NCBI GenBank assembly: GCA_027486585.1
Contig: JAIXOU010000064.1
Coordinates: forward strand, 1 to 64,000
Length of the DNA: 64,000 nucleotides
Direction: 5' to 3'
From: Verrucomicrobiaceae bacterium
GTDB taxonomy: Bacteria; Verrucomicrobiota; Verrucomicrobiia; Verrucomicrobiales; Verrucomicrobiaceae
The position numbers and the translations under genes were made by a program. Positions within the stretch are counted from its first letter, which is position 1; each line of letters opens with the position of its first letter. Below are positions 2,578 to 60,946 of the stretch, piece by piece. The notes under the pieces are model-generated. The model saw nothing but the letters and a program-made list of their open reading frames with translations. It had not been told where the DNA came from and did no database searches.

Positions 2578-3684
2578 ATGCCAGTCATTGATCAATTGTT
2601 TCACACGCTCATTGAAATGGGCGGCTCCGACCTTCATCTCAGCGAAGGCCAACCTCCGAAAGTGCGCGTGCACGGCGGTATTCACCCCATCGGCCAGGAC
2701 ATCCTCACGCGTGAGACGATGGGCACGATGATGCAGGAAATCTGCACACCAAATAGCTGGCAGCGTTACCTTGAAAAAGGTGACCTCGACTTTGCTTATG
2801 AGATGGACTCTGACCACCGTTTCCGCTGCAACTACCTGAAGCAGCAGCACGGTTACGCCTGCGTTTTCCGTATCATTCCCACCAAGATTGCTAGTTTAGA
2901 GCAGCTCGGCATTCCTGCCGTGGTCAAAGAATTCGGCCATCTGCGCAGCGGACTCGTTCTGGTGACAGGGCCGACCGGTTCAGGGAAGTCCACGACTCTG
3001 GCTGCCTTGCTGGATTACATCAATACCAACTTCAGCCGTCACATCATCACGGTCGAGGAGCCGATCGAGTTCGTGCATCGCAATAAGAAAAGCATCATTA
3101 CCCAGCGTGAGGTGCCCATCCAGACACCGACCTTCGCCGATGGTCTGCGCGCAGCGCTTCGTCAGGACGCCGACATTGTTCTGGTCGGGGAAATGCGTGA
3201 CCTTGAGACGATCTCATTGGCTCTGACCGCTGCGGAAACGGGCCTGCTCGTGTTCGGTACTTTGCATACCAACAATGCGCGTAAAACCGTGGACCGTATC
3301 ATTGACGTTTTCCCAGCCGATCAACAGAGCCAGGTGCGCACCATGCTTGCGGCTTCGCTCAAAGGCGTGGTGGCTCAGTTGCTCATGAAGAAGGCGGATG
3401 GCAAAGGCCGTGCGGCGGTGAATGAGATCCTCGTGGCCACGCCGGCTGTGGCTTCAATCATCCGTGAAGGTGCTACCCAGAAGCTCTACGACGTTATCAT
3501 TGGTGGTAAGGCTCAAGGCATGCAGTTCATGGATGAAGCCATCTGGCAGAAACTCCGTGACGGTTACATCACTCCGATGGAAGCCTACATGAAGTCCATC
3601 GACAAAGCCCGCTTCAAAGCCTTCCTTCCGCCTGAGGAGCAGGCCCTGGCCAATGCGGGTGGAGGCGAAGAAAAGAAGAAGTAG
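2578..3684 (+). CDS. pilT: Type IV pilus twitching motility protein PilT
   Basis: GPTGSGKSTTLAALLDYIN, EEPIEFVH, VGEMRDLETISLALTAAETGLLVFGTLHTNNA. Confidence 0.9.
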   Translation: MPVIDQLFHTLIEMGGSDLHLSEGQPPKVRVHGGIHPIGQDILTRETMGTMMQEICTPNSWQRYLEKGDLDFAYEMDSDHRFRCNYLKQQHGYACVFRIIPTKIASLEQLGIPAVVKEFGHLRSGLVLVTGPTGSGKSTTLAALLDYINTNFSRHIITVEEPIEFVHRNKKSIITQREVPIQTPTFADGLRAALRQDADIVLVGEMRDLETISLALTAAETGLLVFGTLHTNNARKTVDRIIDVFPADQQSQVRTMLAASLKGVVAQLLMKKADGKGRAAVNEILVATPAVASIIREGATQKLYDVIIGGKAQGMQFMDEAIWQKLRDGYITPMEAYMKSIDKARFKAFLPPEEQALANAGGGEEKKK

Positions 3685-3862: not shown

Positions 3863-5602
3863 ATGACTTCTTTCGCTGCCATCCAACTCCTAGCCACCGC
3901 GCATCGGCGGATGCTGTGGCATCGTGTGGAGGAGATGCTGGAAAAGAATCGACTGCTGGTGGCCACGATTGCTGGGTTTTTAGGGCTCTACTGTGTGGCA
4001 GCTTATGTGCTGGTTTCGCGTGGGCTCGAGTTCATCAGCAAGACGCCTTTGTTTGGCCCACTGCTGACAGAGCGGTTGGTCTATGTGCTGTTCTTTTTCT
4101 TTTTCGTGATGCTGATCATCTCGAACGCCACGATCACCGGAATGGGACTGTTTCGGCGAAAGGACATGGAGTGGCAGGTCGCTCTGCCTTTGCCTTTTCG
4201 CAGTCTCGTTGTTTGGAAGACGCTCGAAGGCATGGCCTTGGCGAGCTGGGGACTCTTGCTGCTCAGTGCGCCGATACTCCTGGCTCTGGGGCAGCTTTAT
4301 CATGGTGGGCTGAGCTTTTATCTTTTCAGCATTCCGGCGCTGCTTTGTCTCGTGACGATTGCTGCTAATTTTTCGACTTGGATGCTTCTGCTGCTTGTGC
4401 GTTATGCCCAGCGCTGGTGGTGGCGACCTTTGGCTGTGATCGCTGCGCTGATTTTGGCTTCCGGCCTCATCCGCTTATGGTCAGTCACGCCAGATGCCAT
4501 CTCTGGTACCGATTTGGTGGCTAATTTACAGGAAGTTCTGAAGCATACCGAAATCTGCATGCATCCGCTCATGCCCAGTTCATGGGTCGCTGAGGTGCTC
4601 TTTGCCGGTGGCAAGGGCCTGGATGGGCAGGCTGGTTTTTATCTACTGACTTTGTTGGCCAACGCTCTTTTTGCTCTGGTTGTCACCGTTCGGCTTGGTG
4701 CGGCCATGTTTTATCCAGCCTGGAATCGGGTCATGTCTGCCGTGCCGATGATGCAGGTGCAGGCCAGCGAAAAAGCCTGGTTCAGGCAACCGCAGGATGA
4801 GCGGAAAGGGCAGGCTTGGCGCTGGCTGCTGCGCTTAGACAGGGCTTCTCATGCAGTTCTGATCAAAGATGTGCGCACCTTTTTGCGTGAGCCGACTCAG
4901 TGGGGCCAATGTTTGCTGATCTTTGGCCTGCTGCTGATGTACACCTCTAATCTGAGGCGTTTGGGCTATGACCTGCAAAATCCCTTTTGGACACTGGTCA
5001 TCAGTCATCTCAATCTGCTGGTCTGCTGTTTGGCTCTTTCAACTCTGACAACGCGATTTGTTTTTCCTCAATTCAGCATGGAAGGACAGAGATTATGGAT
5101 ACTGGGCCTGTCTCCACTTCCTTTGGTGAAGGTGCTCAGTCTCAAAATGCGGCTGATTGCTGGTGTCCTAGCCCTGTTGACGACTTTGCTTGTGGTGATG
5201 TCGAGCTTGTCACTGGAGTTGCCCTTGTCACGTGCCGCCTTCTTTTGTGCCGCGGTGATCATGATGAGTTATGGCCTGACGGCCCTAGCTTTGGCGCTGG
5301 GCGCACTTTTACCCAACTTTCGTGAGCCCAATCCAGCACGCGTGATCTCTGGCTTTGGCGGCACTCTTTGCCTCATTGGTAGCTTCCTCTTCATCCTAGG
5401 AAGCTCAGCGGCTCTGGCTCTGCCGGATGCGGTAGCTTGGCGCGCGAATTTGCAAAAAATACCACTCCAACCCTCTGAGCTATGGCTTGGCCAAGTGGCT
5501 TCATTGGCTTTTGTCGCTCTGCTAACTCTGGTTTTTGGAGGAATTCCGTGGGTAATGGCAAAAAAGAAGACGAAAAATCTGGATTATTTAAAAGAACTGT
5601 AA
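3863..5602 (+). CDS. Multi-pass membrane protein, ABC exporter permease-like
   Basis: 579 aa with many hydrophobic segments and the layout of ABC-2-like exporters; no ATPase gene adjacent. Confidence 0.5.
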   Translation: MTSFAAIQLLATAHRRMLWHRVEEMLEKNRLLVATIAGFLGLYCVAAYVLVSRGLEFISKTPLFGPLLTERLVYVLFFFFFVMLIISNATITGMGLFRRKDMEWQVALPLPFRSLVVWKTLEGMALASWGLLLLSAPILLALGQLYHGGLSFYLFSIPALLCLVTIAANFSTWMLLLLVRYAQRWWWRPLAVIAALILASGLIRLWSVTPDAISGTDLVANLQEVLKHTEICMHPLMPSSWVAEVLFAGGKGLDGQAGFYLLTLLANALFALVVTVRLGAAMFYPAWNRVMSAVPMMQVQASEKAWFRQPQDERKGQAWRWLLRLDRASHAVLIKDVRTFLREPTQWGQCLLIFGLLLMYTSNLRRLGYDLQNPFWTLVISHLNLLVCCLALSTLTTRFVFPQFSMEGQRLWILGLSPLPLVKVLSLKMRLIAGVLALLTTLLVVMSSLSLELPLSRAAFFCAAVIMMSYGLTALALALGALLPNFREPNPARVISGFGGTLCLIGSFLFILGSSAALALPDAVAWRANLQKIPLQPSELWLGQVASLAFVALLTLVFGGIPWVMAKKKTKNLDYLKEL

Positions 5603-18907: not shown

Positions 18908-21112
18908 CTAAGACATCAGTTTTTGCTGCAAAAGATTTTCCAGACGATTGCCTGCTGCTTGGTGATGTAACATTGCGCGCACTTTCCCCGCAATCACGCT
19001 GCCGCCTTCGATAGGCGGCAAGCCACCACTGTAAATGTTGGAAATCACGGTGTACTCATACTCGATGGCCGGGTTGCCGCTGAACGTTGCCGCAGCTTTT
19101 TGAGTCGCAGCATCGGGCAGGCGGTAGGCAAGATAAGCTGACATACTGCGCGAGGCGAGCGCATCGCCACCAGGCCGTTCGCCGATGAGGGTAATGACAA
19201 CTTTTGGCCTGAGTGCTTCACCCACCGCTTCTGCCAGCTTGACGCGGCCATAGTGGGCAAGGATCGGTTGGCCAAAGCTCAGGTCATGGCCCGCAAGACC
19301 GTCGAGTAGCACGGGTAACAGATCAGGGATGTTATGATGGATGGCTTCTGCACTTAGGCCATCTGAAATCAGTATCTGCACATCATAAGGTTCGGGGCTT
19401 AGCTGCAGCAATTCGGCCTCATCCAGGCGGCTACCTAACGCGGGGTCACTCAAATGCTCGTTTTTGCTGGTTGCCAGCGTATGCAACTCACGCAAGGCGA
19501 TGCCCGAAATCTCTGCCGGCCTCAGTTCGGCATAAATCGCCTCGCGGCCTATGGCCTGATTGGATTTCATGTGGCGCGACACGCGGTTGGCGGGGCGTGG
19601 GCCGGCGTTTTCAAAGCCGTAGATGGCGGGCACCGATTCCTGCAGACGCTGGAATTCACTATCGGACTGGCAGAATATTCTGGGGTTACCCCAATGGACC
19701 CCACGCTTTACTTCTCCATCTGCGCTACGCTCGAAAATGCCGCGTGAAATAGCCCATTCAAGAAATTCGGGTGCGGGTTTCAAATCATAAATCTCGCGCA
19801 GAGTCTGGTCATCATGGCCGCTGGTATCGAAATATGCCAGCATGCGATCGGTGCCCAAGTAAACATCCATGAAGAAGTTAGCGCCTGCCGCAGTGAGTAA
19901 CTCGGTGGCCATCTGCTGGCCTTCGAGCGTGATTTGCGAATGCAGAGTATAGCAGGGCGCCATGCCCATGGGCAGCCCCAGCATTTTCCCCATGAAATGA
20001 TCCTGCAGGCAGGAGTAAATCATCTCGTGATTATCAAGATGGGTTTCAGGGCCGATGAAGCCGGTGACGTTGTTGACCATGAATGGCTTGTAGCGTCGAG
20101 CCAAGCCATAGCACAGCGCTTCGGTAGTCGCCATGTCAATGCCCTCATGCTTGCCATAGCTGAACTCGCTACCCTGCCCGGTCTCGAAATACATGAAGTT
20201 TTCAGCTACCTCGGCCAAGGGACCGCGCTGCAGCATGGTATGGTAAGCATGATCCAGCAGTTCTACTGTAACGTCAAACTCATCGGTAAGCGTGCGCTCA
20301 GTGCCCGCTAGGCTTTGAAACATGATCTCTACCGGCGCACCTTCTTCCAAGCAGGCCAGCTGGGTTTTAATGTGTGACAGCACGCATATCTGAGTGGGCG
20401 CGCCGGTATTTTTCCTCACTTGATCGAGGTGATACAACGTCGCACTGATATTAGCCACCGTATCGATGGCGGGATTGAGCCCAACAAGGGCATCGCCCGA
20501 GCCGGTGCTCAGGCCGGCATAAATGAGCATGGTGAGGCCACTGAGGTTATCGGTGGGGTGGTTAGGCTGCAAACGTGAAGACAGCGTTCCGGGCAAACCC
20601 ATCACGGTTCGGGCTTTGGAAGCTGCGCCACGCTTGAGTTTTTTGGCGAGAAAAATCAGCTCGTGTGTGTCTAATAACTTGGTTAGCGCAGCGACCATCA
20701 CGCCGGTTAGCGCAGAACCCACCTGCCGGATCCGCTCGCCAGTGGCGCGCAGCAAATCATCCTTTAACTCACCCAGCGTGAGGTTGGCAATATCGGCAAA
20801 CACCACGTGATCAATATCGTAATTAACGCGCATGACGCTATCGATGCTGCCCCGTGCGGTCGTCAGTGGTTGATCAAACAGATGCTGCAATGTCATCTTT
20901 GAGACCACGGCGCGCGCAGCCTCGCGCATCACTTCATCTTCCGCCGCCAGTCCGGCCTTGCGATCACCCGCTTTGCTGATATCGGCGGCACCCAGCACAT
21001 GTTTCAGATCACGGAAAGTAAAGGATCTGTCATGCAGATTGATCCTGTAAGTCTGCGGTGCTTGAGGTTCAGGCAACTTGATTTCATCTAACGGTAATAG
21101 TGGTTTCATCAT
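18908..21112 (-). CDS. eutBC: Ethanolamine ammonia-lyase, fused large and small subunits (EutB-EutC)
   Basis: EutB-like N-terminal ~460 aa (SIDSVMRVNYDIDHVVFADIANLTLGELKDDLLR) continuous with EutC-like DVQILISDGLSAEAI...PKVVITLIGERPGGDALASRSMSAYLAY. Confidence 0.92.
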   Translation of the reverse strand: MMKPLLPLDEIKLPEPQAPQTYRINLHDRSFTFRDLKHVLGAADISKAGDRKAGLAAEDEVMREAARAVVSKMTLQHLFDQPLTTARGSIDSVMRVNYDIDHVVFADIANLTLGELKDDLLRATGERIRQVGSALTGVMVAALTKLLDTHELIFLAKKLKRGAASKARTVMGLPGTLSSRLQPNHPTDNLSGLTMLIYAGLSTGSGDALVGLNPAIDTVANISATLYHLDQVRKNTGAPTQICVLSHIKTQLACLEEGAPVEIMFQSLAGTERTLTDEFDVTVELLDHAYHTMLQRGPLAEVAENFMYFETGQGSEFSYGKHEGIDMATTEALCYGLARRYKPFMVNNVTGFIGPETHLDNHEMIYSCLQDHFMGKMLGLPMGMAPCYTLHSQITLEGQQMATELLTAAGANFFMDVYLGTDRMLAYFDTSGHDDQTLREIYDLKPAPEFLEWAISRGIFERSADGEVKRGVHWGNPRIFCQSDSEFQRLQESVPAIYGFENAGPRPANRVSRHMKSNQAIGREAIYAELRPAEISGIALRELHTLATSKNEHLSDPALGSRLDEAELLQLSPEPYDVQILISDGLSAEAIHHNIPDLLPVLLDGLAGHDLSFGQPILAHYGRVKLAEAVGEALRPKVVITLIGERPGGDALASRSMSAYLAYRLPDAATQKAAATFSGNPAIEYEYTVISNIYSGGLPPIEGGSVIAGKVRAMLHHQAAGNRLENLLQQKLMS

Positions 21113-24382: not shown

Positions 24383-24516
24383 CGTGTCTTTTCTGTTTAG
24401 TGATGGTTGGACGGTTTAAGTGGAGGCATCCTAGAGTCCCTCGTATCGAATCGATTGGGTCAATCCTTTCAGGTCAGGGAAGACCGTGGCAGGAGAGATG
24501 TCTAAACGGCAAAGGC

Positions 24517-25119
24517 TCACTTCCGTTCGATGAGTCGAATCAACCGTGCGTGTAAGCCAAGGCTGTTCATGAAGGCAATCTCCTCGCGTTGGCCATCGCT
24601 CAGGGGTTCCCCCGGCTTTTTGACCTCAACAAAACGCCCCATGTAGGCTTTCTGAGTGTTCCAATCACGAGCAAACAGAAAGAGATCAGGAACGCCAAAA
24701 ATGGTTGCATCGCTGTGTCGATCCACCAGTTGTTGCAATCGCTCCTGCCCGCAGATCGACCATAGAGCTTCCAGGGTAGCCAAAGAAGGAAGTGAATTCA
24801 AATAGGGTTGATTGTCCCCGCCTGCACGAAGTTCTTCACGTGAGTGCTGCAAAGCAGTCTCTGTCATTTTTGATGGCCAGGCTTCGCAATCACGACCAAG
24901 CGCAGAACTCAGAGCACGCCAAACATGTGGTCCCAGGCGAACTCCGCTGAAACTAGCATTTGGATGCTTTCTTTGACGCCATCGGATGAGGATGATGTCT
25001 TCAGGAATCGCAAATCTATCGTTACTTGGATCCACGAGGTATTTAACGCGGTTGCCCTCATTTTTCCGGCCATAAACGAGGTGGCTGATTCGCAGGGAGG
25101 GTTTGGTATCTTGGTCCAT
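24517..25119 (-). CDS. VRR-NUC-type nuclease domain protein, module copy 1
   Basis: PDLFLFARD...FVEVKKPGEPLSDGQREEIAFMNSLGLHARLIRL (PD-(D/E)XK/VRR-NUC signature). Confidence 0.8.
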   Translation of the reverse strand: MDQDTKPSLRISHLVYGRKNEGNRVKYLVDPSNDRFAIPEDIILIRWRQRKHPNASFSGVRLGPHVWRALSSALGRDCEAWPSKMTETALQHSREELRAGGDNQPYLNSLPSLATLEALWSICGQERLQQLVDRHSDATIFGVPDLFLFARDWNTQKAYMGRFVEVKKPGEPLSDGQREEIAFMNSLGLHARLIRLIERK

Positions 25120-25175
25120 GGCAGAGAATGAAATCGTGCAGATTGAATGTGATAATCTAGAGGTGCCTAGGATGA

Positions 25176-26114
25176 TTATTTTAGACCTGGTATCTCGTCA
25201 CTCGCCTGAATGTCGACTGGGTAGGGAAACGAGAGGCTCTGGATGTCAGCACGCAGTTTTTCCGCAGCGGCATGGGACAAGGGGGATCGTGACCCGAATT
25301 CAAACGCGCCCGGAATTGGAATGAAGGAGCAGTTTGAGGTGCTGATACCTGCATTTAGAAGCAGCGTCATCCCGTGATACCTCATGTTATCGTAATTTCG
25401 CCGAAACTCCAATAGGGCTCGGAGGCGATCCAGTTTTGATTCACCATCCACATGACTGCCTTTGGAAGCTACGGCTCCTTGTTTGTTTTTTTGAATCAAC
25501 TTAGCAGACTTTCTTCGCCTTTTGGGTTGCACAGGCCAGTCTGACTCAGATTGGCGATCATAAAGCCGATATCGATGAAAAAGCTGATTGATCGCACCAG
25601 CGATGAGACCTGCAGGATAACACACATGCTCCTCTGGATCTTCTTTATCAGGCCAGGATTTACGACCCGCAACCCGCCTTGCATAGGCATAGGCCGCGTG
25701 CACACTTTCATGGGTGATGTAATCCATACTCAAATGGCCCAGAACAAATCCTGCGACGCAAAAATAAACCGGGTCAATCTGCCAAACCGGTGGACGTCGA
25801 GGGGTGCCTTTGGGCGGATGAAAAGTGACAATGCTTGAGAGATCACTTACAATGGCTCGCACCGTGTCTTCCGGTGCCTTGCGGCGACCCAGCCCCAACC
25901 GCCAAAAACGCTGAAGAGCAGCCACATCACGAAAAACAAGAATCTTGGCTCTAAGTTTGGAACGACTGGAGACCCTGACATCGCCTGAAAAGACAATGCC
26001 TTCTGAGGCTGACAGGGTGGACCAATCAGTGGGTAAAGCAGGAGTGGCGAATCGGATTTGCATGAGGAAGTCTGTGTTAAGGATGGAGAAGGGTGGCGGC
26101 AGGAAGGGCCGCAT
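25176..26114 (-). CDS. Putative HEXXH zinc metalloprotein, module copy 1
   Basis: ITHESVHAAYAY with downstream DPEEHVCYPAG; alternative start at 26064 (MQIRF). Confidence 0.65.
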   Translation of the reverse strand: MRPFLPPPFSILNTDFLMQIRFATPALPTDWSTLSASEGIVFSGDVRVSSRSKLRAKILVFRDVAALQRFWRLGLGRRKAPEDTVRAIVSDLSSIVTFHPPKGTPRRPPVWQIDPVYFCVAGFVLGHLSMDYITHESVHAAYAYARRVAGRKSWPDKEDPEEHVCYPAGLIAGAINQLFHRYRLYDRQSESDWPVQPKRRRKSAKLIQKNKQGAVASKGSHVDGESKLDRLRALLEFRRNYDNMRYHGMTLLLNAGISTSNCSFIPIPGAFEFGSRSPLSHAAAEKLRADIQSLSFPYPVDIQASDEIPGLK

Positions 26115-26717
26115 AAGGATAAATATAAACAGGCGCGCCCGTACGTGCGCGAGAGTCCAAGTGACTGGTGCGGTGTCTTTTCTCCACTCGTTGACTGATT
26201 GGAATCGGTTCCTTCATTGTCTTCTTCTCTGGCGCTGCGATTGCCGTGTAGATGTTTTTGTCGGTGAGCATGGTTTGGGGCTGTGGGGGTAGGGGTTGCG
26301 GAAGAAATTTTTTGTTCTTCCTGCAATATTACACTGCCAAGCATAGGGTCAGCGCCCTCGAGATTCTGGGAGGGATGCTGCACAAGTTCTTGAAAACCAT
26401 GTTCTTAAAGAGCTGGTTTGCAGTGAATATGGGATGGATGCAGGGAAGAGGTAATCAGGCGCTTCTGGCTCTGTGTCTCCTGCGTCTGCTTCTCCGCCTT
26501 CATTCTTCTCTTGGCGAGAATGTGGAAACATGGTTTCAAGCCTAACGTCTCCAATGCCTTTCGTCTGTGAACGGTTTGATGCCCTAGACTTTACGAGATC
26601 GCCGGCTTTGGCTTGCAAAGGATCATCTGGCGTGTCTGTGGCTGACGCGAAGGTGATGATTTTGATACAAGGATCGGTAATTTGGCCGAAAAGATAGGCC
26701 TCCACTATCTCGGAGGC

Positions 26718-28118: not shown

Positions 28119-28586
28119 TCATGGTGTCTCGCCAACAAACTCAGCGATTCGTTTTTTGGTCATCTCAATTGAGGTGTCGGCGGCAGCTAGGGGGGCACCA
28201 GAACCTCCGTCGTAATCTTCATAGGCCTCTGTCATGGCTTTTTCACGCATTTTAAGCCACTGACGCTGCTGCTCCAAAAACTGGCTTCTCGCTTCACCTT
28301 CTAGCTTTTCCAGCCGGGAATGAAAAATGGACCAAAGCTGCGCATCGTAAATGCTGGCTAGGCTGGTTGAAAGGTAGTTCATATCCTGCTGGGCATCGCT
28401 CTTTTGAAGCAATTCCTCGACAAGACTGATGGGTTCCGACAGGTCTGGTGACCAATCAGATAGGGATGAGGGCAGGGAAGAGGATGGTTTCGTGTGACAG
28501 GATGAAAAAAGCAGAATGACGGCGAGTGAAGCAATGGATTTCATGGGTGTCTTTAAGCGTGAGTGGTTGGGCAGTAAGTCGTACAA
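28119..28586 (-). CDS. LprI/DUF1311-like secreted protein
   Basis: Lipoprotein-like N-terminus; QDMNYLSTSLASIYDAQL...FLEQQRQWLKMREKA pattern. Confidence 0.5.
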   Translation of the reverse strand: MYDLLPNHSRLKTPMKSIASLAVILLFSSCHTKPSSSLPSSLSDWSPDLSEPISLVEELLQKSDAQQDMNYLSTSLASIYDAQLWSIFHSRLEKLEGEARSQFLEQQRQWLKMREKAMTEAYEDYDGGSGAPLAAADTSIEMTKKRIAEFVGETP

Positions 28587-29341
28587 AAGTCTGTCAAGAT
28601 GATGGCCAATGGTTCGGGAATGCGGGCCAAGGCAAACTTTCTTAGTTCATCGGGAATATGGCCATACCAAGCTTCGGCAATGCCTCCGACAATACAAGCC
28701 AGGGTATCGGCGTCACCCCCAAGGCTGATGGCCAATCGCAGCGCATGCTCATAGCTGGTGCTATCAAAAAAGGCAGCTAAGGCTTCTGGGACAGTTTCTT
28801 GGCAGGTTGGCTTGAAGTGATAGCCAGGTCTGATCTCGTCACAGCTCCGGCTCAGGTCATAGCCAAAGCGGTCGGTGATTTCGGCTCGAATAGCTTCCTT
28901 GGACGCTTTTTTTCTAGCCATGAAGACTGCTAGGGCCGTCGCCTGAGCACCTTTGATTCCCTCGGGATGACTGTGCGTCACACAGGCGGAGCGAGCTGCT
29001 TCTGTCAGCACGGTTTCTACCGTGTCGCAGGCCCAGCCCACAGGGCCTACTCGCATGGCAGAGCCATTGCCACAACTATTGTAGGGCTCGCAGAGGCTGC
29101 CATAAAGCCATCGCTTGAATCCCTGGCCATAGCCACCCATGGGAAAACGATAGGTCGTGCCAAAGCGTCGATAGGCTTCGGTATAGTCGCCACCCTGCAA
29201 CAGCGTTTCAGCTGTTGCAAAGGACAGGATGGAGTCGTCAGTGATTTCGCTGTCAGGTGGAGTAAGATCGAAATCGAGATGTTTGATGCTGCTGAATTCG
29301 TAAGTTGAACCGCAGATGTCGCCGATGATTGAACCAAGCAT
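28553..29341 (-). CDS. ADP-ribosylglycohydrolase (DraG) family protein
   Basis: GSIIGDICGS, TDDSIL, CVTHSHPEGIKGAQ, ISLGGDADTLACIVGGIAEAWYG. Confidence 0.9.
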   Translation of the reverse strand: MLGSIIGDICGSTYEFSSIKHLDFDLTPPDSEITDDSILSFATAETLLQGGDYTEAYRRFGTTYRFPMGGYGQGFKRWLYGSLCEPYNSCGNGSAMRVGPVGWACDTVETVLTEAARSACVTHSHPEGIKGAQATALAVFMARKKASKEAIRAEITDRFGYDLSRSCDEIRPGYHFKPTCQETVPEALAAFFDSTSYEHALRLAISLGGDADTLACIVGGIAEAWYGHIPDELRKFALARIPEPLAIILTDFCTTYCPTTHA

Positions 29342-29386
29342 AAGTGAAGTTGAGGGAAGTAGAGGGTTTGTGTTTGTGGTATGTGT

Positions 29387-31273
29387 TTACGGGGAGAAAG
29401 TGGATTGAAAGGAGGCAAGAACGGCGTCGGCCTGAGCCTTCTGCTGACACAAGCTTCGGATGGAAGCTTCCGTGGCGAGCATCTTTTGTTGGGCACTCTT
29501 GGTGCACGCTGCCAACGGTTGCTGCACTGAGGCAAGCTTCCGTTGATGGTCTTGCTCTGCTTGCTGCAGCATCTGTTCGACTCGCGCTTGATCCTGGAAA
29601 CTCAGGACAACCGATTTTGTCACCTTGATTCCGCGCGCCATTCGTCGACGCCATTTGAGCAGGCTGGTGATGACATTTGAGGGCATGCTCGCTGCCTGAA
29701 GCTGTTGTGGCTGCAAGTCCGCCGCGGTGAGAATGTTTGCGCTTCTGAGCTTTGCCATGCGGGAATCTCCAACCATCGGAATTTTGTAATCCTGAAGCAT
29801 CATGCATTCTAGGTGCTTGTTCAGGGATTCTTGGTTGTTACTTTTGAGCACGCCCTCGAGGAACTGCGACCGCTTCTTTGCCATGGATGGCTGGCGCTTG
29901 AGCCAGTCCTGGAGGCTTTTTTTATGGCGCTGAAAATCTCTCTGATAGTTGACGATGACTTGCCTTTGCACCTGCTGCAGAGACCTGATTTTGTCGCTGA
30001 TGTCCTTGATCAGAGCCCGTTGTTTCCGCATCTCCTCCTGCTGCCAGTTTTTCTGCCAATGTTGTCGAAACAGAAGGCGGCTGCACCAGGACATGAGTCC
30101 CTGCGGCCCAGGCTGAATAGGAATTTGAACCGGCATGACAGCCGCAGTTTCAGTCGTGACCTGAAAGGCAAAGGGCTGATGACTCTTGAGAACTTCCGCA
30201 ACCGGATCTTTAACACTCGACAGCAAATCATGGCTAGCACGGGGAAAGAGATCTGCCCCGGTCTGTTTGAAGATGGTGCACCAAGGACATTCCATCGCAC
30301 CTTTCCAGTGACAATGCGCCGGAGATGCCTGGCAGCGGATGAGATCATGTTCAAGGTTTACCAGAAGGTCCGCCCAACTCTGAGCCGAGGGTCTCATACC
30401 CTCTTGTCTTGAACTGGGCTCGAACGCTTCAAGAAAGGCCTGCTGGATGGGGGGAGGAAGCATCGCAAAAGATGGCGCTGCTTTCGGTGGCGAGAGTGGC
30501 AAGCCTAACTTGGCAGGAGCGTAGGCGAACGCATGCTGACGAATGGCATCATGCGGCTGCAGGTCATCATTGCCGACAGGCACACCAGCGAACGGATGCC
30601 GACCCGAGAAAAGCAAAAGAAAGATCAATTGAGCCAGTCCAAAAAGGTCATGATTGGCGGTGCGTTGCACTCCAGTGAGCTTTATTCCTTGGAGCTCTGG
30701 GGGCGTCCAGAGTGGGGTTCCCACGTCCGACGTGTGGAGCCTTTCGCCATCGTGAACCTGAAAACTATCCGTATCGATCAATCGCACACCATGGCCTGGC
30801 ATCACCTTCAAATTCTTTTCGTTCACATCCCCAATAACCAAGCCATGAGCATGAACCTTGGCAAAGGCCTGGGCAGTCTGTTTTGCTGTTTTCACCAGCA
30901 ACTCGAACGTAGCACCGGGCAGAAGAACGCGTCTAGAACCCATGTTGTAGATTTCAAAAACATCCAGTCCCTCGGCGAGTGGGATAAAGACGCCGCAATG
31001 GCGGGTCTTAGCGGCGTCAGAAAACGCTAGGGAAACAGGAAGAGCGGCAACATCAGATAAGGAACCCGCCAATTGGCGGAGTGCCTCACTGCGCCGGCGA
31101 TCTGCCTGAGACGGTGCAGAGTGCCAGATTTTGACCAGGTGACTGTTCACGGCTCGTAGCTTCCGCACGACGCCTTGCCCACCGCGGGCAAGCTCGGCTT
31201 CCATTTGAAAAACGGTACCGGATTCGTCAAAGATTGGGCTCATGGAGAATGATGGCCAAGGTTTTGTCGTCAT
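29387..31273 (-). CDS. Atypical Ser/Thr kinase, TerY-P-type, with helical/HhH C-terminal region
   Basis: ELARGGQGVVRKL, VIGDVNEKNLKV, RLIDTDSFQ, GTPLWTPPELQG; C-terminal LRSANILTAADLQPQQLQAA (HhH-like); start probably 31243. Confidence 0.85.
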   Translation of the reverse strand: MTTKPWPSFSMSPIFDESGTVFQMEAELARGGQGVVRKLRAVNSHLVKIWHSAPSQADRRRSEALRQLAGSLSDVAALPVSLAFSDAAKTRHCGVFIPLAEGLDVFEIYNMGSRRVLLPGATFELLVKTAKQTAQAFAKVHAHGLVIGDVNEKNLKVMPGHGVRLIDTDSFQVHDGERLHTSDVGTPLWTPPELQGIKLTGVQRTANHDLFGLAQLIFLLLFSGRHPFAGVPVGNDDLQPHDAIRQHAFAYAPAKLGLPLSPPKAAPSFAMLPPPIQQAFLEAFEPSSRQEGMRPSAQSWADLLVNLEHDLIRCQASPAHCHWKGAMECPWCTIFKQTGADLFPRASHDLLSSVKDPVAEVLKSHQPFAFQVTTETAAVMPVQIPIQPGPQGLMSWCSRLLFRQHWQKNWQQEEMRKQRALIKDISDKIRSLQQVQRQVIVNYQRDFQRHKKSLQDWLKRQPSMAKKRSQFLEGVLKSNNQESLNKHLECMMLQDYKIPMVGDSRMAKLRSANILTAADLQPQQLQAASMPSNVITSLLKWRRRMARGIKVTKSVVLSFQDQARVEQMLQQAEQDHQRKLASVQQPLAACTKSAQQKMLATEASIRSLCQQKAQADAVLASFQSTFSP

Positions 31274-32012
31274 CCGTGCGTTGGCACACCAGATCGGATT
31301 CCAACAACTGTGTCAGCTGGGTGGAAAAGATGGGGACAATCGTTTTGCGCAACTCGCGCATAAGGGGGGCTAAAAAGCCACGATGAGGCACTCTGCCGGA
31401 AAGGTTAATGGCCAGACGTTCCACCCCATCGGTCATGCCAAAGATGGAATCGAAACCTCCCTCCAGCATCTCGAACTGAAGAACCCGTTTGGCAGCTTCA
31501 CAGGTGACGAAGGTGGTTTCACCAGCATGCTCGCCGCCAGTCGGCCATGTCATCGCTGCCAGAATGCCGTTTCGGCACACACACCACAATCCATCCCCAA
31601 CTTGATAGAAAGCTACCTTTGTTGGGGTGATCACCGTGACCAGGAGAGTGGAGGCGAAGTCAGCGATGTTGACTGCTTTGTCGTGGGCTTCTTTGGCAAT
31701 GCGCTGGCGCACGTGTTCAAGCATTTCCAAGCCGCATCGAGCATTGAGCTTGGATTCAACACCGGATGCTCCAACGCGCAGAAATTGACTCAAAAAATAA
31801 TCCAGGGCCCCATCCACGGCCAGCTCACTGCCCCGATCCGCATGACTTGCCGATCCCGCGCCGTCAGCAAGGGCGCAAACCAATGCTCCAGGAACCTCTA
31901 GGAACCCGTTGGCATCCTGACAGGGCAGTTGGTTACTGAGGTGCGCAGCTCCGCGCACCGAAACTTGAGCATGCTTCCAGACGGTCGGTTTCATGGCAAG
32001 TTTACAGATCAA
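31227..32012 (-). CDS. PP2C-like phosphatase of a TerY-P triad
   Basis: VRGAAHLSNQLPCQDANGF...CALADGAGSASHADRGS, FGMTDGVERLAI. Confidence 0.85.
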   Translation of the reverse strand: MICKLAMKPTVWKHAQVSVRGAAHLSNQLPCQDANGFLEVPGALVCALADGAGSASHADRGSELAVDGALDYFLSQFLRVGASGVESKLNARCGLEMLEHVRQRIAKEAHDKAVNIADFASTLLVTVITPTKVAFYQVGDGLWCVCRNGILAAMTWPTGGEHAGETTFVTCEAAKRVLQFEMLEGGFDSIFGMTDGVERLAINLSGRVPHRGFLAPLMRELRKTIVPIFSTQLTQLLESDLVCQRTDDDKTLAIILHEPNL

Positions 32013-32721
32013 TCGAAGACCAACCTGCGGATGACGGCAGGGTCAGCGAGGCTGCACCGGGGGTTGAGCTGGAAACCGCCTTCAAGGAGGATGATAACCA
32101 AGAGAACAGCTCGCGAAAACAGAGTCCGCGCAATTTCATGGCGGGTCGTTTGGGCGGGCAGAGTAGATTGAGTCTTTTCATGTTCGCTTCTTCGACTCCG
32201 ACTCCGAAAAAGCTGAGCTTGCCCTTCATCTCGCCTTCATGAATGAGGGCGATCGCATCCTGCCAATAATGGCTTCCATCATCCGTGGGCTCACCATCAG
32301 TGATCAAAAACAACCAGGGTCGGTAATAAGCAATGCCTGCTGCGCGGTATTGCATCTTTCGCTGTTCCAGCATGGTAACTGCACGCACCACAGCCTCGCC
32401 CATCGGTGTGCCGCCATCCGCCTGCAAAGTGGGGGCTAGGAAGGATTCGGCATTCGTGAAATCGCAGACCGTCTTGACGGTTCCACCAAAGGAAACGATG
32501 GCAACATCCACTCGTTTGCGGGCAAGGTTATCTGCAGCCAGTTCGCTGGCAAACTGTTCAAGCCCGCGGTTCAATGCCTCAATCTTTTTTCCGCTCATGG
32601 AGCCTGACGTATCGACTAACAGGATGGTAGGTGCACGAGGTTCAGGATTGTCGGCGAAATCAACATCAATAATGGTGGGTGTCATCGTGATAGCCTCGTT
32701 TTCGGCATGTAGTCTTTTCAT
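32002..32721 (-). CDS. TerY-like vWA domain protein
   Basis: MIDAS LLVDTSGSMSG, LITDGEPTDD. Confidence 0.87.
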   Translation of the reverse strand: MKRLHAENEAITMTPTIIDVDFADNPEPRAPTILLVDTSGSMSGKKIEALNRGLEQFASELAADNLARKRVDVAIVSFGGTVKTVCDFTNAESFLAPTLQADGGTPMGEAVVRAVTMLEQRKMQYRAAGIAYYRPWLFLITDGEPTDDGSHYWQDAIALIHEGEMKGKLSFFGVGVEEANMKRLNLLCPPKRPAMKLRGLCFRELFSWLSSSLKAVSSSTPGAASLTLPSSAGWSSIDL

Positions 32722-32772
32722 AGGGTGGTTTTGTTTTGGGGGTAATGGTTTCGGTGGGGTGAAGTCAGTTCC

Positions 32773-34440
32773 TCAGGCAGCACGCGCCATTTGTGCAAAG
32801 ACGCGACCGGCAAGTTGGGGCAGTTGGCTCGGACTCAGGTTGATCCGCGCAGATGGAACGAGTTTGGCCAGAGATGAAGTGTCAGGGCCAAGCCCCAGAG
32901 CCGTGATGCTGCTGGCGTGTTGTCTGAGAACGCCCAACTGGCGACGTGCATCGTCAAAGTTTTCCGGTTCGCCATCGCTCAATAGCCAGAAGTGGCGGTG
33001 ACGGTGGGGCAATTCTTCGAGAAGCTCTCTGGCCTCAATCAGGGCACCTGTGAGGTTGGTGCCGCCATTGGGGTTATTACGCAGCTGGCAAAGACGGGAC
33101 ACGACCTTATCGCAGTCGGGCGCGGCCCAGTCTTGGACAAGGTGTGTGTTCGAACTGAACATGAGAATGCTCAGAGGTAGTCCAAGACGCAGACAAGATT
33201 CTCGCAGCATCACGAGGGCATCAAAAGTGGCGTGAGCACGTTCTCCTTCCATGGATGAAGATGCATCGGCAAGTATGACAAAAGCAGGGTCAGGTCGTGT
33301 GGGCTGGTTCATTCGCTGCCAGAGTCGGTCATGGCGGCGCGGATCCGCCTCGTATTGCATGGCCTGACGAATATCCATGCGCTGACCGCTGCGGTGATGG
33401 CCACGATAGCGCATTTTCACTTCCGCGGTCATGTGACGCAACATCGCTTCTGTGATCTGTTCAATCGCGCCATGGTGGCGAACCAGGGACTGGTGGTAAT
33501 CACTCTGCTTGGGATCATTCCAAAGGAAGACTCCTTGCTGCCGACCGCCCTTCGTCGAGGTCCTTTGACCGCGTGCATTGCCAGTCTGGCCTTGTGCCGC
33601 AGCACCTCCGTAGCGCCCTTTTTGAATTGAGCCACGGGTTTGCCTCAGTTGCGTTGCTAGTTGACCCAGTGGAGACTTGGTCTGATCCAAAAGACGGCGA
33701 AATACTGGCAAAATTTTACGCCAGACAATTTCCCACATTTCATGCTGTGCCATTCGCACCTCAAGTTCCATCGGGGCCGGCGGCTCTCCGTAATCCAGGC
33801 CTGTGTAGCAGGCCCGCACCGGATGGTTAGCATAACTCATGCGTGTTTTCTCCGGATCTGGACATTCCACTGGCGGGGCTGCCTCGATGGCAAGTTCGAT
33901 GTGAGACCAAACCTCATCCAGCGCTTTCTGCGCAGGCTCAGGCAAATGTTCCGGAACACGGCCATACCACCAGCGGCAGAGGATGGCGATGAGAAATGCG
34001 GAGCCAGGATCAGCTTCAAGCTTTTCTCGCGAAGTGACCAGCAGTTCGCTAAACAGCAGGTCGTTGTAGCAGCGGATCCATGGTTGGCAACCTGGCAGGC
34101 GAATGGGTAGCCAGCGCTCGAGTCGGCAGTCATCGATCACGTTAATTAAGGAATGAACAACATGGTCTTTCAGAAGCGCCTCTGGCACGATGTCCCAGAT
34201 GCGGGTCATATAGGCATGCGCCGCCTCATGCAGCGAAAGGCCTCGACAGTAGTCCTGAGGGCGCAGCCTGAGATCCGCAAGATTAACGGTGATGACTTGA
34301 TCTTTCCAGTTGAAGCTCCACGGAACGTTGAGCTCCGTGCCTACTTCCAGGATGATGTTAGGCTGCTGTGCGACTAATGCGATCAGCCCTCTAAGCTCTT
34401 GGGTGAATTCGGAAAGATGGGGAGGATGGGCGGTTTCCAT
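32773..34440 (-). CDS. vWA domain protein partnered with MoxR ATPase (CoxE-like)
   Basis: HEAAHAYM in N-terminal region; MIDAS ILADASSSMEG; LLSDGEPENFDD. Confidence 0.85.
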   Translation of the reverse strand: METAHPPHLSEFTQELRGLIALVAQQPNIILEVGTELNVPWSFNWKDQVITVNLADLRLRPQDYCRGLSLHEAAHAYMTRIWDIVPEALLKDHVVHSLINVIDDCRLERWLPIRLPGCQPWIRCYNDLLFSELLVTSREKLEADPGSAFLIAILCRWWYGRVPEHLPEPAQKALDEVWSHIELAIEAAPPVECPDPEKTRMSYANHPVRACYTGLDYGEPPAPMELEVRMAQHEMWEIVWRKILPVFRRLLDQTKSPLGQLATQLRQTRGSIQKGRYGGAAAQGQTGNARGQRTSTKGGRQQGVFLWNDPKQSDYHQSLVRHHGAIEQITEAMLRHMTAEVKMRYRGHHRSGQRMDIRQAMQYEADPRRHDRLWQRMNQPTRPDPAFVILADASSSMEGERAHATFDALVMLRESCLRLGLPLSILMFSSNTHLVQDWAAPDCDKVVSRLCQLRNNPNGGTNLTGALIEARELLEELPHRHRHFWLLSDGEPENFDDARRQLGVLRQHASSITALGLGPDTSSLAKLVPSARINLSPSQLPQLAGRVFAQMARAA

Positions 34441-34449
34441 AAGGCAGGT

Positions 34450-35931
34450 TTAAAGGTCGGCAGCGCGTAGCATGGCGGCCACCGCGTTGCGATCAGCCAC
34501 GTCGCGAAGGCGTTTGACATAAAAAATGTCGATCGCCTCGCGTAGCAGCATTCGGCTTGGTTCCGCTCCCGCAGCCAATTGACGGTGGACAAACTCCAAC
34601 GTGCTAAGCAGCGTGCGCCGTGTGAAACTGTAACGCTCGCGTCGCGTTCTTCCCAGGCTGGCTGGGCCATTTTCTGTTCCGGACGCTTTCACCATGGAAA
34701 TCTGAAAGAGAGCCAGATGACGTGCCAAGTTGTCCCAATCTGGCAGTTGCTGCAGCAGTTCGAAAGTCGGCTCTGTGCTTGCTGCTTGATAGGCCTTGCC
34801 GTTGCAATGCACCACGGGGTGATGTCCCGTCGCTAGAAATCGAATCGTCGCGAGGTAGTCTGCCTCTCCTGGGGGCGCTGCCTGATGCCAGAGCGTAAAG
34901 CGGTCGCGAAAAGCTGGGCTAAGCACATTGCGTCCGGCATACTCGGCAGGGTTTAGCGTGGCAAAGATGCGAAATAGTGGGTGCACGGGGATATCACCAC
35001 CAGGTCCATAAACTCGGCCATCTCCCTCGCTCAACATGAGCATGCGAGGGCGTTCAAGGACACTGTTGATACGTTCCAGATTCTGAGGCTCAGCATTATT
35101 GACCTCGTCCATCAAGAACCAGAGGCCATGCTCTAGGGCAATGGGCAGTGCGCCTAGTTGCAGACGCCAGTTCACGGTCGGCAGCCGCTCATTTCCCATG
35201 ATGAAATGCATCTCTAGGGGCGTCAGTCCACGCTTGCTGGACTCTGCCTGCGCTAGGATGTCACGGCTTGCTTTGGAAAGTCGGGGGGCCAAGGCCTGCA
35301 GTTGACCCAGGTCGATTCCGTCGGCACCACTACCTGGCACATAACGCGCAATGAGCTCTCCCGAGTCGGACTGGCCGTGAAGGTTTAAGCGCATGAGGGG
35401 CTGCTTCAGCAAATGAGCCAGCCAGAGCACCCCAGTAGTCTTCGCAGCGGCGGTTTCACCTTCGGATGCCTGTGGATAATCGTAGGCTGCCCCCATGGCC
35501 ACAGATTTGATCGTGTCCACCGTCGGCTGGTCAAAGACCAGATGCTTGAAGCGATCCGCTGAAGGAATGAGTCCCTGCCACGCACCTTCATAGGGTTGTG
35601 GCTTTTTCATCATAAAATCCAGAAAGCGCAGCTGTCCTTCTTTGTCCTCCATCAAGGGCTGTGGTGCCTGTGCCATCAGAGGCGCTGCCTCCGTGGCCTC
35701 ATCACCCGTGCCACTGGATAGGTGTGACCGACGGAAGACCTCCCAGGTCACCAGCTTCACGCCGCGCTGCTGTACTTGTTGATAAATTTCGCGGCTGGCG
35801 TCAGGGCCCGTGACGACCAGCTGCGCCACATCCACCATGCGGACGACGCGGTGACCGCCTTGGGTAACGAGTTGCGCGACACGGGCACTTTCAGCAGGTG
35901 GGAAACCTTTGAGACAAATAGAATAGGACAT
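34450..35931 (-). CDS. MoxR-like AAA+ ATPase with N-terminal BRCT-like region
   Basis: ASEGETAAAKTTGVLWLAHLLKQPLMRLNLHGQSD, WFLMDEVNNAEPQNLERINSVLE, FRIFATLNPAEYAGRNVLSPAFRDRF. Confidence 0.85.
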   Translation of the reverse strand: MSYSICLKGFPPAESARVAQLVTQGGHRVVRMVDVAQLVVTGPDASREIYQQVQQRGVKLVTWEVFRRSHLSSGTGDEATEAAPLMAQAPQPLMEDKEGQLRFLDFMMKKPQPYEGAWQGLIPSADRFKHLVFDQPTVDTIKSVAMGAAYDYPQASEGETAAAKTTGVLWLAHLLKQPLMRLNLHGQSDSGELIARYVPGSGADGIDLGQLQALAPRLSKASRDILAQAESSKRGLTPLEMHFIMGNERLPTVNWRLQLGALPIALEHGLWFLMDEVNNAEPQNLERINSVLERPRMLMLSEGDGRVYGPGGDIPVHPLFRIFATLNPAEYAGRNVLSPAFRDRFTLWHQAAPPGEADYLATIRFLATGHHPVVHCNGKAYQAASTEPTFELLQQLPDWDNLARHLALFQISMVKASGTENGPASLGRTRRERYSFTRRTLLSTLEFVHRQLAAGAEPSRMLLREAIDIFYVKRLRDVADRNAVAAMLRAADL

Positions 35932-57622: not shown

Positions 57623-58222
57623 CTAGGCCAGCACATCAAGCTGGCAGCCCAACGCGCAGCTCAGATCAAAAAGTGAATGTAGATATGGGTTTTGGCGACC
57701 AACCTGACCTAGGCGTGAAATCACTGTGCGCTCCACACCTGATTCACGAGCAAGCTCGGAAAAGCTCCGACCTGAATCGGTGATGCGATCAGCAAGTGCT
57801 GAGCAAAGACTGGCAGCAATGTTCTTGGCTTCCTGTGCTGAGGTTGCATCGAAGGCCGAACGATCTTTCATAAGGCAAGATCTCCAGACACAGCGCTTTC
57901 CTGTTGGCGTTTTGAATTTGAGTTGGATCGCCTCGCGAACCACACGTGCAAAGTTCAGTTGCAGGCCACAGCATAGCCGAATCGCGTACTTACAGTGGAT
58001 GCCTCGAACTTCATCAATCAGCATCTTTAAGGAGTGCAAGTCGACCTCGGACGCCCGCGCCCATTGAGCTAGGCTCATTTCAGAGCCACGGTGTTCCTGA
58101 ATAAGGATGGTCCAAAAGGCATCTCGGAAGGAATGTTCAATTTCTTGATTCATCAAATTCAATCTGCATCCTTTAGCCGATGGAATAGAGTTGTGCAACC
58201 CAAGCTCGGTATCCTGCCACAT
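57623..58222 (-). CDS. HTH (XRE-like) DNA-binding protein
   Basis: C-terminal SFSELARESGVERTVISRLGQVGRQNPYLHSLFDLSCALG. Confidence 0.6.
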   Translation of the reverse strand: MWQDTELGLHNSIPSAKGCRLNLMNQEIEHSFRDAFWTILIQEHRGSEMSLAQWARASEVDLHSLKMLIDEVRGIHCKYAIRLCCGLQLNFARVVREAIQLKFKTPTGKRCVWRSCLMKDRSAFDATSAQEAKNIAASLCSALADRITDSGRSFSELARESGVERTVISRLGQVGRQNPYLHSLFDLSCALGCQLDVLA

Positions 58223-58425: not shown

Positions 58426-59277
58426 CTAGAGATTACACACTAAGCTCACACCTTTGGAGGCAGCCGAGGGTCTCAATAGATTCACAAGTTGAGTATTAGC
58501 TGGAGACGAAATATAGCCTCGCTCTGTATCACCTACAATCATCCCAGCATTTAGGCCATAGCGCCAAATAACAAGGCCTGACAAAAAGCAAATTAAAGAA
58601 TCAAGCTGATCCTGCTCCTGTTTGCTTGGCTTTCTGTTCAAAGCAGCCATATTTTTGCACCATTTATCCCAATCAGCAAGACCAGCTTCCTCGAGATAAA
58701 TCGCGATTCCTTCACATAATTTTTTCCAGTCAGACTGCTCAAATGTCTTTCTAGAGGGGTTATATCTAGCAACGATTCCTCGCTCAAGAAATTCAGGAAA
58801 CAAACCAAGAATAGCGAGGCAGGGATACGTCTCAACGCAAGCACGTCCCATCTTCATCGTAAATGCACTGACGGGATTCAAGCTCACATCGATAAGCTCC
58901 AAGAATTCCCATATGGGTGCATTTTCACCAAATAACATTCCTCCATCCTTTTTCCTGCCTGCACGCTGGATACCGCCTTTTAGTTTGCCTACTAGGCTGC
59001 CGATTAAGCTCTCAACAGGACGGCTACCAAAATCGTTTGGCACAATGATTGGCTGATCAATCATGAGGAGCAACGCTTTTTCTGATGCGTGAATATTAAT
59101 GGCCGTAGCTGCTTCAAAAAAATTCACTGATTCTGGGCCAAACAGTGGCCGGATTCCGAGAGGTCCGATTTCTGCGAGGCAAAGGCCGCCTTTGTTTCGG
59201 CCTGACCAAGCAGAGTCAAAACCACCAATGCAGAAAGGAGTGGGTGAATAAATATTTTTAAGAGTCATGCAAGCCAA
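58426..59277 (-). CDS. DUF429-like predicted nuclease (RNase H fold)
   Basis: CIGGFDSAWSGRNKGGLCLAEI, LLMIDQPIIVPN, ETYPCLAILGLF, DQLDSLICFLSG. Confidence 0.75.
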   Translation of the reverse strand: MACMTLKNIYSPTPFCIGGFDSAWSGRNKGGLCLAEIGPLGIRPLFGPESVNFFEAATAINIHASEKALLLMIDQPIIVPNDFGSRPVESLIGSLVGKLKGGIQRAGRKKDGGMLFGENAPIWEFLELIDVSLNPVSAFTMKMGRACVETYPCLAILGLFPEFLERGIVARYNPSRKTFEQSDWKKLCEGIAIYLEEAGLADWDKWCKNMAALNRKPSKQEQDQLDSLICFLSGLVIWRYGLNAGMIVGDTERGYISSPANTQLVNLLRPSAASKGVSLVCNL

Positions 59278-59342
59278 TGTGCGGACGTTGGTAGCGAATT
59301 AAATTTGATGATCTAGCACAATTTTAAACAACCACACTCAGC

Positions 59343-59945
59343 TCACTTCCGTTCGATGAGTCGAATCAACCGAGCGTGCAAACCAAGGCTGTTCATGAAC
59401 GCAATCTCGTCGCGCTGGCCTGAGCTGAGCGGTTCCTCCGGCTTTTTGACCTCCACAAAACGCCCCATGTAAGTTTTCTGGATCTTGGAATCACGAGCGA
59501 AAAGAAAAAGATCGGGGACACCGAAGACCTCTGGATCGCTGTGGCGGTCCACCAGCTTTTGCAGACGTTCTTGGCCGCAGATGGTCCAAAGAGCCTGCCA
59601 AGTGGCTAAGGCAGGTAGGGAGTTCAGGTAGGCTGGATTGCCCTGACCGGCGCGCAGGGCTTCTCGTGCCTGCTCCAGGAGCGACTCCGTCTTTTGCAAA
59701 GGCCAAGCCGAACAATCATGACCAAGAGCATAGGCCAAAGCCCGCCAAAGATGGGGCCCCAATCGAGCCCCACTAAAGCCGGCATTTGGATGTCGTCTCT
59801 TGCGCCAGCGGATGAGGACGATGTCCTCGGGAATGGCATACTGGTCGCTGTCGGGATCCAGCAGGTATTTAACACGTTTTCCCTCATTCTTACGGCCGTA
59901 AACGAGGTGGCTGATTCGCAGCGAGGGTTTGGTATCTTGGGCCAT
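59343..59945 (-). CDS. VRR-NUC-type nuclease domain protein, module copy 2
   Basis: Same length (200 aa) and mostly identical to 24517..25119; PDLFLFARD...FVEVKKPEEPLSSGQRDEIAFMNSLG. Confidence 0.8.
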   Translation of the reverse strand: MAQDTKPSLRISHLVYGRKNEGKRVKYLLDPDSDQYAIPEDIVLIRWRKRRHPNAGFSGARLGPHLWRALAYALGHDCSAWPLQKTESLLEQAREALRAGQGNPAYLNSLPALATWQALWTICGQERLQKLVDRHSDPEVFGVPDLFLFARDSKIQKTYMGRFVEVKKPEEPLSSGQRDEIAFMNSLGLHARLIRLIERK

Positions 59946-60007
59946 GGTGGAAGATTGTTATGAAAGGGTGAAGACTGAATGTGTAAATTTAGATGTCTCT
60001 CTAATTA

Positions 60008-60946
60008 TCATTTTTGACCTGGTATATCGTCACTCGCCTGAATGTCGACGGGGTAGGGGAACGAGAGGCTCTGGATGTCGGCACGCAGCTTTTCCGCTGC
60101 GGCATGGGACAAGGGCGATCGTGACCCGAAATGAAATGTATCTGGGTTTGGAATGAAGGAGCAGTTTGATGTGCTGATACCCGCATTCAGAAGCAGCTTC
60201 ATCCCGTGATACCTGATGTCATCGAATCTTCGCCTTCGCTCCAAGATGGCTCTGAGGCGATCTAGTTCCGAATTCTCATCTTGGTCGCAGTCTTCGGAAG
60301 CAGCTGCTCCTTGTTTGTCTTTTTGAATCCGCTTAGCAGACTTTCTCCGCCTTTTGGGTTGCACAGGCCAGTCTGATGCAGACTGGCGGTCATAGAGCCG
60401 ATGGTGATGAAAAAGCTGATTGATAGCGCCTGCGATGCGGCCTGCAGGATAACAGACATGCTCCTCTGGATCTTCCTTATCTGGCCAGGATTTACGACCC
60501 GCAACCCGCCTTGAATAGGCATAGGCCGCGTGCACACTTTCGTGGGTGATGTAATCCATCTTCAGATTGCCCAGAACGAATCCTGCGACGCAAAAATAAA
60601 CCGGGTCAATTTGCCAAACTGGTGGACGCCGAGGGGTGCCCTTTGGCGGATGAAAAGTGACAATGCTTGTGAGACCAGTCACAACGGCTCGCACCGTATC
60701 ATCCGGGGGCTTGCGATGTCCCAAACCCAGCCGCCAAAAGCGCTGAAGAGCGGCCAAATCATGAAAGACTAGAATCTTGGCTTTAAGCCTGGAATGGTCG
60801 GATACTGTGACATCGCCTGAAAAGACGATGCCTTCTGAGCCTGATAGTGTGGACCAATCATCGGGCAAGGGAGGGGTGGCAAAGCGGATTTGCATCTGGA
60901 AGTCTGTGTTAAGGATGGAGAAGGGTGGCGGCAGGAAGGGCCGCAT
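60008..60946 (-). CDS. Putative HEXXH zinc metalloprotein, module copy 2
   Basis: Same length (312 aa) and mostly identical to 25176..26114; ITHESVHAAYAYSRRVAGRKSWPDKEDPEEHVCYPAG. Confidence 0.65.
   Translation of the reverse strand: MRPFLPPPFSILNTDFQMQIRFATPPLPDDWSTLSGSEGIVFSGDVTVSDHSRLKAKILVFHDLAALQRFWRLGLGHRKPPDDTVRAVVTGLTSIVTFHPPKGTPRRPPVWQIDPVYFCVAGFVLGNLKMDYITHESVHAAYAYSRRVAGRKSWPDKEDPEEHVCYPAGRIAGAINQLFHHHRLYDRQSASDWPVQPKRRRKSAKRIQKDKQGAAASEDCDQDENSELDRLRAILERRRRFDDIRYHGMKLLLNAGISTSNCSFIPNPDTFHFGSRSPLSHAAAEKLRADIQSLSFPYPVDIQASDDIPGQK

Follow-up and report, generated by a model that had tools for sequence, protein, structure and literature searches.

The nearest precedent for the locus described here is found in the COG2856 zincin genes, which are associated with the RelE and PIN toxins in toxin-antitoxin operons (PMC2701414). 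Proteins of this group (ImmA/IrrE, Peptidase_M78) resemble the protein studied here in being short, in carrying a HEXXH motif with a downstream Glu, and in their phage or mobile-element setting. ArdC-type antirestriction metalloproteases are likewise mobile-element proteins with a metalloprotease domain (PMC7213743), and were considered by us as a lead only. As to the nucleases, VRR-Nuc proteins cleave structured DNA and are used in biological conflict as antibacterial effectors; the VRR-Nuc effectors of T6SS are toxic and have immunity partners (PMC9635880). The literature that we searched contains no such combination of a zincin with a VRR-NUC nuclease, and the gene pairing is known from a single genome only.

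The window (the whole stretch of 64,000 nucleotides analysed in this work) comes from a contig of a Verrucomicrobiaceae bacterium. A first-pass annotation had revealed in it a candidate two-gene system, consisting of a gene for a HEXXH protein followed by a gene for a VRR-NUC-type nuclease. Both orfs were found at the place indicated, on the minus strand. The host sequence is a chromosome of the Prosthecobacter group, in which the two-gene unit is duplicated; the relatives within the genus are named Prosthecobacter and Verrucomicrobiaceae MAGs. The genes and the duplicated units are the following.

24515-26512, minus strand: whole duplicated unit, copy 1 (upstream region, HEXXH gene and nuclease gene), by self-BLAST
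25176-26114, minus strand: HEXXH (zincin-like) gene, copy 1, longest ORF, 312 codons
25176-26063, minus strand: HEXXH gene, copy 1, from the likely start MQIRF, which is supported by phage homologues
24517-25119, minus strand: VRR-NUC nuclease gene, copy 1, 200 aa (Pfam VRR_NUC 34.8 bits, cut-off 23.8)
59341-61338, minus strand: whole duplicated unit, copy 2, by self-BLAST
60008-60946, minus strand: HEXXH gene, copy 2, longest ORF
60008-60895, minus strand: HEXXH gene, copy 2, from MQIRF
59343-59945, minus strand: VRR-NUC nuclease gene, copy 2, 200 aa (Pfam VRR_NUC 29.1 bits)

The two copies of this ~2.0-kb unit share 80.5% DNA identity, which drops to background 2 bp past the nuclease stop codon and, on the upstream side, ~450 bp before the MQIRF start. 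At the protein level the copies are 84% (HEXXH protein) and 78% (nuclease) identical. In both of them the two genes lie on the same strand, with a spacer of 56 bp in copy 1 and 62 bp in copy 2. The order and spacing are thus indeed kept, as was noted at the first pass; however, since both copies belong to one duplicated segment, this reflects shared descent and is not independent evidence of a functional unit. Further copies of either gene were absent from the rest of the 6.5-Mb genome, and the two nucleases are the only VRR-NUC matches in the whole of it. Between the copies the HEXXH gene has a dN/dS ratio of 0.22 and the nuclease gene one of 0.10; these values are low, therefore both genes have been maintained by purifying selection since the duplication. 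Their synonymous divergence is unequal (0.40 for the HEXXH gene vs 1.31 for the nuclease gene, z = 5.8), and thus the pair has not diverged as a single block. This points to gene conversion or recombination affecting the HEXXH part.

The following features were located in copy 1 of the HEXXH gene.

25698-25712, minus strand: HESVH metal-site motif, residues 135-139 of the 312-aa ORF; H, E and H invariant in 13 sequences
25629-25631, minus strand: codon of E162, candidate third metal ligand, in DPEEHVCYPAG (residues 159-169 of the 312-aa ORF); invariant in 13 sequences
25209-25457, minus strand: C-terminal domain (residues 220-302), phrog_26133-like by PHROG profile and pairwise match

Alignment of 13 sequences from bacteria and phage contigs revealed that H135, E136, H139, R147 and E162 are invariant. 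Because the H, E and H of the motif and the downstream E162 are all retained, the HEXXH is not a chance occurrence. In the AlphaFold model it lies within a helix (113-132 in MQIRF numbering, pLDDT ~95), and E162 (E145 in this numbering) opens the following helix 145-164. The zincin-type metal site proposed at the first pass is therefore supported as a prediction, with HEXXH lying in a confidently modelled helix and a conserved downstream Glu as the candidate ligand; no homologue deprived of the key residues was seen among the 13 sequences, and those of the nuclease are kept in both copies. Fold matches of the model in BFVD include small phage proteins named 'Metalloprotease' and 'SprT-like'. 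A PDB fold search with the same model gave no significant match, and a PDB sequence search gave nothing usable; the HEXXH protein might be no peptidase at all.

The suggested likeness to ImmA/IrrE zincins was not borne out. The Pfam M78/COG2856 profile gave no hit in the pair up to E = 1, and membership in this family was rejected on this ground. Unlike ImmA/IrrE, the HEXXH protein has no Pfam match and no Xre-type HTH partner (no HTH match was found in either gene of the pair), and unlike the ArdC-type proteins it has no Pfam match to any such domain. Its real start is probably the second Met (MQIRF at 26063), since the phage homologues begin there and the block immediately in front of it is nearly identical between the copies and looks non-coding.

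Sequence comparison showed the HEXXH protein to be made up of two phage proteins fused together, the genes of which are near neighbours in some phages. The core, 48% identical to a 169-aa protein of phage contig L022, belongs to a zincin-like family of phage contigs, tentatively of the PHROG 1365/30714 type. The E-values with phrog_1365 were 0.009 (weak) for copy 1, 7.8e-4 for copy 2, 5.8e-7 for the bacterial homologue L006 and 4.4e-6 for the L022 phage protein. The PHROG 1365/30714 proteins are alike in the HEXXH region and their profiles are short (127-145 positions), but they have neither the C-terminal fusion nor a known nuclease partner. Residues 220-302 of the HEXXH protein align with positions 205-287 of 295 in phrog_26133 (E ~6e-5), and the C-terminus matches a separate 287-aa protein on contig L022 (E = 5e-15 in pairwise comparison). 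Full membership in phrog_26133 was rejected, because only the C-terminal ~80 residues match, as a shared domain; the fusion has neither the N-terminal part of the phage proteins of this family nor their zinc-ribbon-like region (CGYCG...C..C).

The Casjensviridae phages BcepNazgul (gp11) and Enc34 (ORF65) and Caulobacter phage Sansa all encode proteins of the phrog_26133 family. One of the BFVD fold matches was an Enc34 protein as long as ORF65. In four viral contigs (L022, L039, L040, L043) the phrog_26133 gene is followed within ~1-2 kb by the HEXXH gene, always in the same order; in L022 the two separate proteins are encoded at 2723-3583 and 5001-5510. The fusion of such neighbouring genes leads to the prediction that the two separate phage proteins act together, that is, it suggests cooperation of the phrog_1365-type and phrog_26133 proteins. 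No relatives of the HEXXH protein were found in plasmids and INPHARED phages by tblastn. It should be mentioned that in L039 the gene lying between the phrog_26133 and HEXXH genes carries a DUF5983 domain. In another phage contig (L028:4093-5201) the HEXXH relative follows an SprT-like gene (HELIH), so that two zincin-like genes stand in a row, directly after terminase-like and portal-like genes.

The VRR-NUC-like signature that had been noticed at the C-terminus of the downstream protein was recovered by Pfam, since both copies exceed the gathering score of VRR_NUC given above. Copy 1 covers positions 60-110 of the 116 in the profile, i.e., its C-terminal, catalytic half, with the following motif.

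24619-24687, minus strand: nuclease motif D145 ... E165-V-K167 (GVPD...FVEVKKP); residues identical in both copies

D145, E165, K167 and Q177 are unchanged between the copies, and the D...E-x-K pattern is the same as that of the catalytic residues D507/E522/K524 of PaFAN1 (PMC9635880). By these features the product is a stand-alone VRR-NUC (PD-(D/E)xK) protein with predicted nuclease activity. The C-terminal D...E-x-K motif is common to it and other VRR-NUC (PF08774) nucleases, such as PaFAN1/FAN1 and the T6SS effectors TseV1-4. Unlike FAN1 and TseV, the nuclease described here is a 200-aa protein in which no PAAR-like or SAP/TPR domains were detected, and unlike TseV1-4 it has no DUF3396 immunity neighbour. 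In PHROG it matches phrog_824 (function unknown) and an endonuclease family; a further match, with a family of Holliday junction resolvases, is weak. Relatives were found neither in viral contigs, phages or plasmids, nor in the other 47 genomes of the 48-genome genus set, the 68-genome family set and the 388-genome phylum sample. The AlphaFold model of the nuclease (pLDDT 40.9 with two sequences) was too poor and was set aside.

Relatives of the HEXXH protein were revealed in four other genomes of the genus and in viral contigs. None of these homologues, bacterial or phage, has a VRR-NUC gene beside it, so the idea of an obligate system of the two genes is unsupported: the nuclease is not an obligate partner of the HEXXH protein, and the zincin works elsewhere without it. 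The only case approaching such a pairing is a 107-aa VRR-NUC-like gene of contig L036, which scores below the Pfam cut-off and lies beside a helicase-like gene ~7 kb from the HEXXH gene. In a Prosthecobacter MAG (L020) the HEXXH gene is located upstream of a NERD-helicase gene, and the homologue of L021 has a WYL regulator on one side and a DUF932-like gene on the other. The C-terminal fragments of the HEXXH protein that are visible in L007 and L010 are followed by a convergent unrelated gene. Several homologues of the genus are broken; in particular, that of L019/L004 (G033) stops after HESVHAV, and G003 holds fragments. The remnants in G003 (L009, L010) are located at contig ends and have a common sequence that looks inserted.

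The surroundings of the two copies in the host are different. Copy 2 is preceded by an SF1-type helicase gene and followed, ~66 bp after the nuclease gene, by a gene (58426-59277, minus strand) that PADLOC identifies as defence candidate PDC-S44 (218 bits) and that also weakly matches DUF429. An HTH-like gene (57623-58222) lies two genes past the nuclease of this copy. Copy 1 is flanked by genes for an LRR protein and an amino-acid permease, with ethanolamine ammonia-lyase near, and has no defence-type neighbours.

Upstream of the HEXXH gene, two kinds of conserved elements were revealed.

26333-26352, minus strand: 20-bp box CTGACCCTATGCTTGGCAGT, copy 1, ~270 bp upstream of the HEXXH gene
61162-61181, minus strand: 20-bp box, copy 2
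L020:4311-4330: 20-bp box in the Prosthecobacter-group relative
26096-26127, minus strand: TATATTT followed by a 5-bp GC hairpin (GCGGC-CCTTCCT-GCCGC), copy 1; identical in copy 2
60928-60959, minus strand: TATATTT and 5-bp GC hairpin, copy 2

The box, searched as CTGACCCTNTGCTNGGNAGT, has three matches in the 48 genus genomes vs none for the reversed control. Every match is on the same strand as a HEXXH gene and lies roughly 215-270 bp upstream of it, including a gene whose protein is only 46% identical. The box was absent ahead of the other HEXXH genes (L021, L019 and those of phages). Its position suggests the site of a dedicated regulator or another conserved site. In our reading of the alignment, the substitutions between the copies lack codon periodicity, therefore the box was treated as a nucleic-acid element and its interpretation as a coding leader was rejected. 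The TATATTT with the hairpin is a probable promoter and leader start. In L004 (L004:1381-1500) a TATATTT and a hairpin of different sequence occupy the same place before the HEXXH start; upstream, L004 and copy 1 (26096-26150) have GCACGTACG in common. The hairpin is conserved in place and weak by fold z-score (-1.7 and -0.7). The Rfam search gave a sub-threshold chance match only, and the scan for sigma-70 promoters and terminators gave no excess over shuffles.

We favour, with a probability of about 0.4, the explanation that a zincin-type gene captured from a phage now stands together with a VRR-NUC effector in a defence-type accessory cassette; the pair is probably an accessory cassette directed against mobile elements. 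The phage-derived zincin would have been taken up by the chromosome and would now be part of this cassette. Since VRR-Nuc proteins act on structured DNA and are used as antibacterial effectors (PMC9635880), the nuclease may, like its relatives, serve as the effector that cuts branched or foreign DNA. The fused zincin-like protein might supply the trigger or the specificity by binding or cleaving another protein, which could come from a phage, be a regulator of the host or be the nuclease itself; the protease step and its target are guesses. The cassette is favoured by the VRR_NUC scores and the unchanged motif residues of both copies, by the invariant HEXXH and Glu in confident helices and their metalloprotease-like fold matches, and by the phage relationship of both parts of the fusion, whose separate genes lie close on four viral contigs. 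The low dN/dS, the common strand with short spacers, the conserved promoter-like element ahead of the first gene, and the PDC-S44 and NERD-helicase neighbours (after copy 2 and after the homologue of the Prosthecobacter MAG, respectively) point in the same direction, as does the use of VRR-Nuc proteins in conflict. On the other hand, the nuclease accompanies no HEXXH homologue outside the host genome, copy 1 has no defence-type neighbours, and the unequal synonymous divergence indicates that the genes did not evolve as one block. PADLOC gives neither gene a match better than E 0.042, so that a known defence system was rejected; the third ligand is a candidate and catalysis a prediction, with no significant match in the PDB fold search and a nuclease model too poor to use. 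It is improbable that the locus is a new chromosomal defence or conflict module in which the fused zincin senses or processes a phage component and unleashes the nuclease, the phage genes normally serving the phage.

The solitary HEXXH homologues and the unequal synonymous divergence could also be explained if two phage-type genes had landed side by side by chance, been duplicated together and worked independently, the nuclease acting, for example, on recombination or replication junctions. The phage habit of placing VRR-NUC-type genes beside helicases, as in L036, agrees with this possibility, which we regard as a tentative alternative; however, both genes are intact, face in one direction and are under purifying selection, and the duplicated unit ends 2 bp past the nuclease stop, as expected if the pair is a selected unit. 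A small nuclease in a two-gene unit, present in two copies in one genome and patchy in the genus, is also reminiscent of a toxin-antitoxin pair, with the VRR-NUC protein as the toxin and a HEXXH fusion that either restrains it or is itself the regulator, by analogy with the toxin-associated COG2856 zincins (PMC2701414) and with the toxic VRR-Nuc T6SS effectors that have immunity partners (PMC9635880). We consider this quite improbable: neither protein has a DNA-binding domain, phages and other bacteria have the presumed antitoxin by itself, and the COG2856/M78 profile is unmatched. Protease control of the nuclease, proposed in the first-pass annotation, is possible, and the conserved zincin site, the gene order from zincin to nuclease and the N-terminal half of the nuclease with no assigned domain would suit it. 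Its specific form, in which the zincin cleaves the nuclease (e.g., its ~110-residue N-terminal region) and so switches it on or off, is nevertheless very doubtful, because the zincin lives independently of the nuclease in phages and other bacteria, the cleavage is purely hypothetical, and the HEXXH protein may not be a peptidase.

Through the fusion protein, an uncharacterised zincin-like family of phages becomes approachable for the first time from the bacterial side, and the predicted cooperation of the phrog_1365-type and phrog_26133 proteins is testable with the phage proteins. Although the pairing comes from a single genome, predictions that can be tested follow from the phage fusion and from the conserved box. 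If the HEXXH and VRR-NUC proteins do have a joint phenotype, a protease-linked VRR-NUC module would be added to the bacterial conflict systems; if the locus is a chromosomal module, the bacterium would have turned fused phage genes into a part of its own cassette.

Two other loci of the window should be mentioned. A cluster at 28553-35931 (minus strand) encodes an ADP-ribosylglycohydrolase, a protein kinase-like protein, a PP2C phosphatase, two VWA proteins and an AAA_5 ATPase, and resembles VWA-PP2C-kinase phosphorylation triads. At 18908-21112 (minus strand), EutB and EutC, the large and light chains of ethanolamine ammonia-lyase, are fused as one 734-aa ORF.
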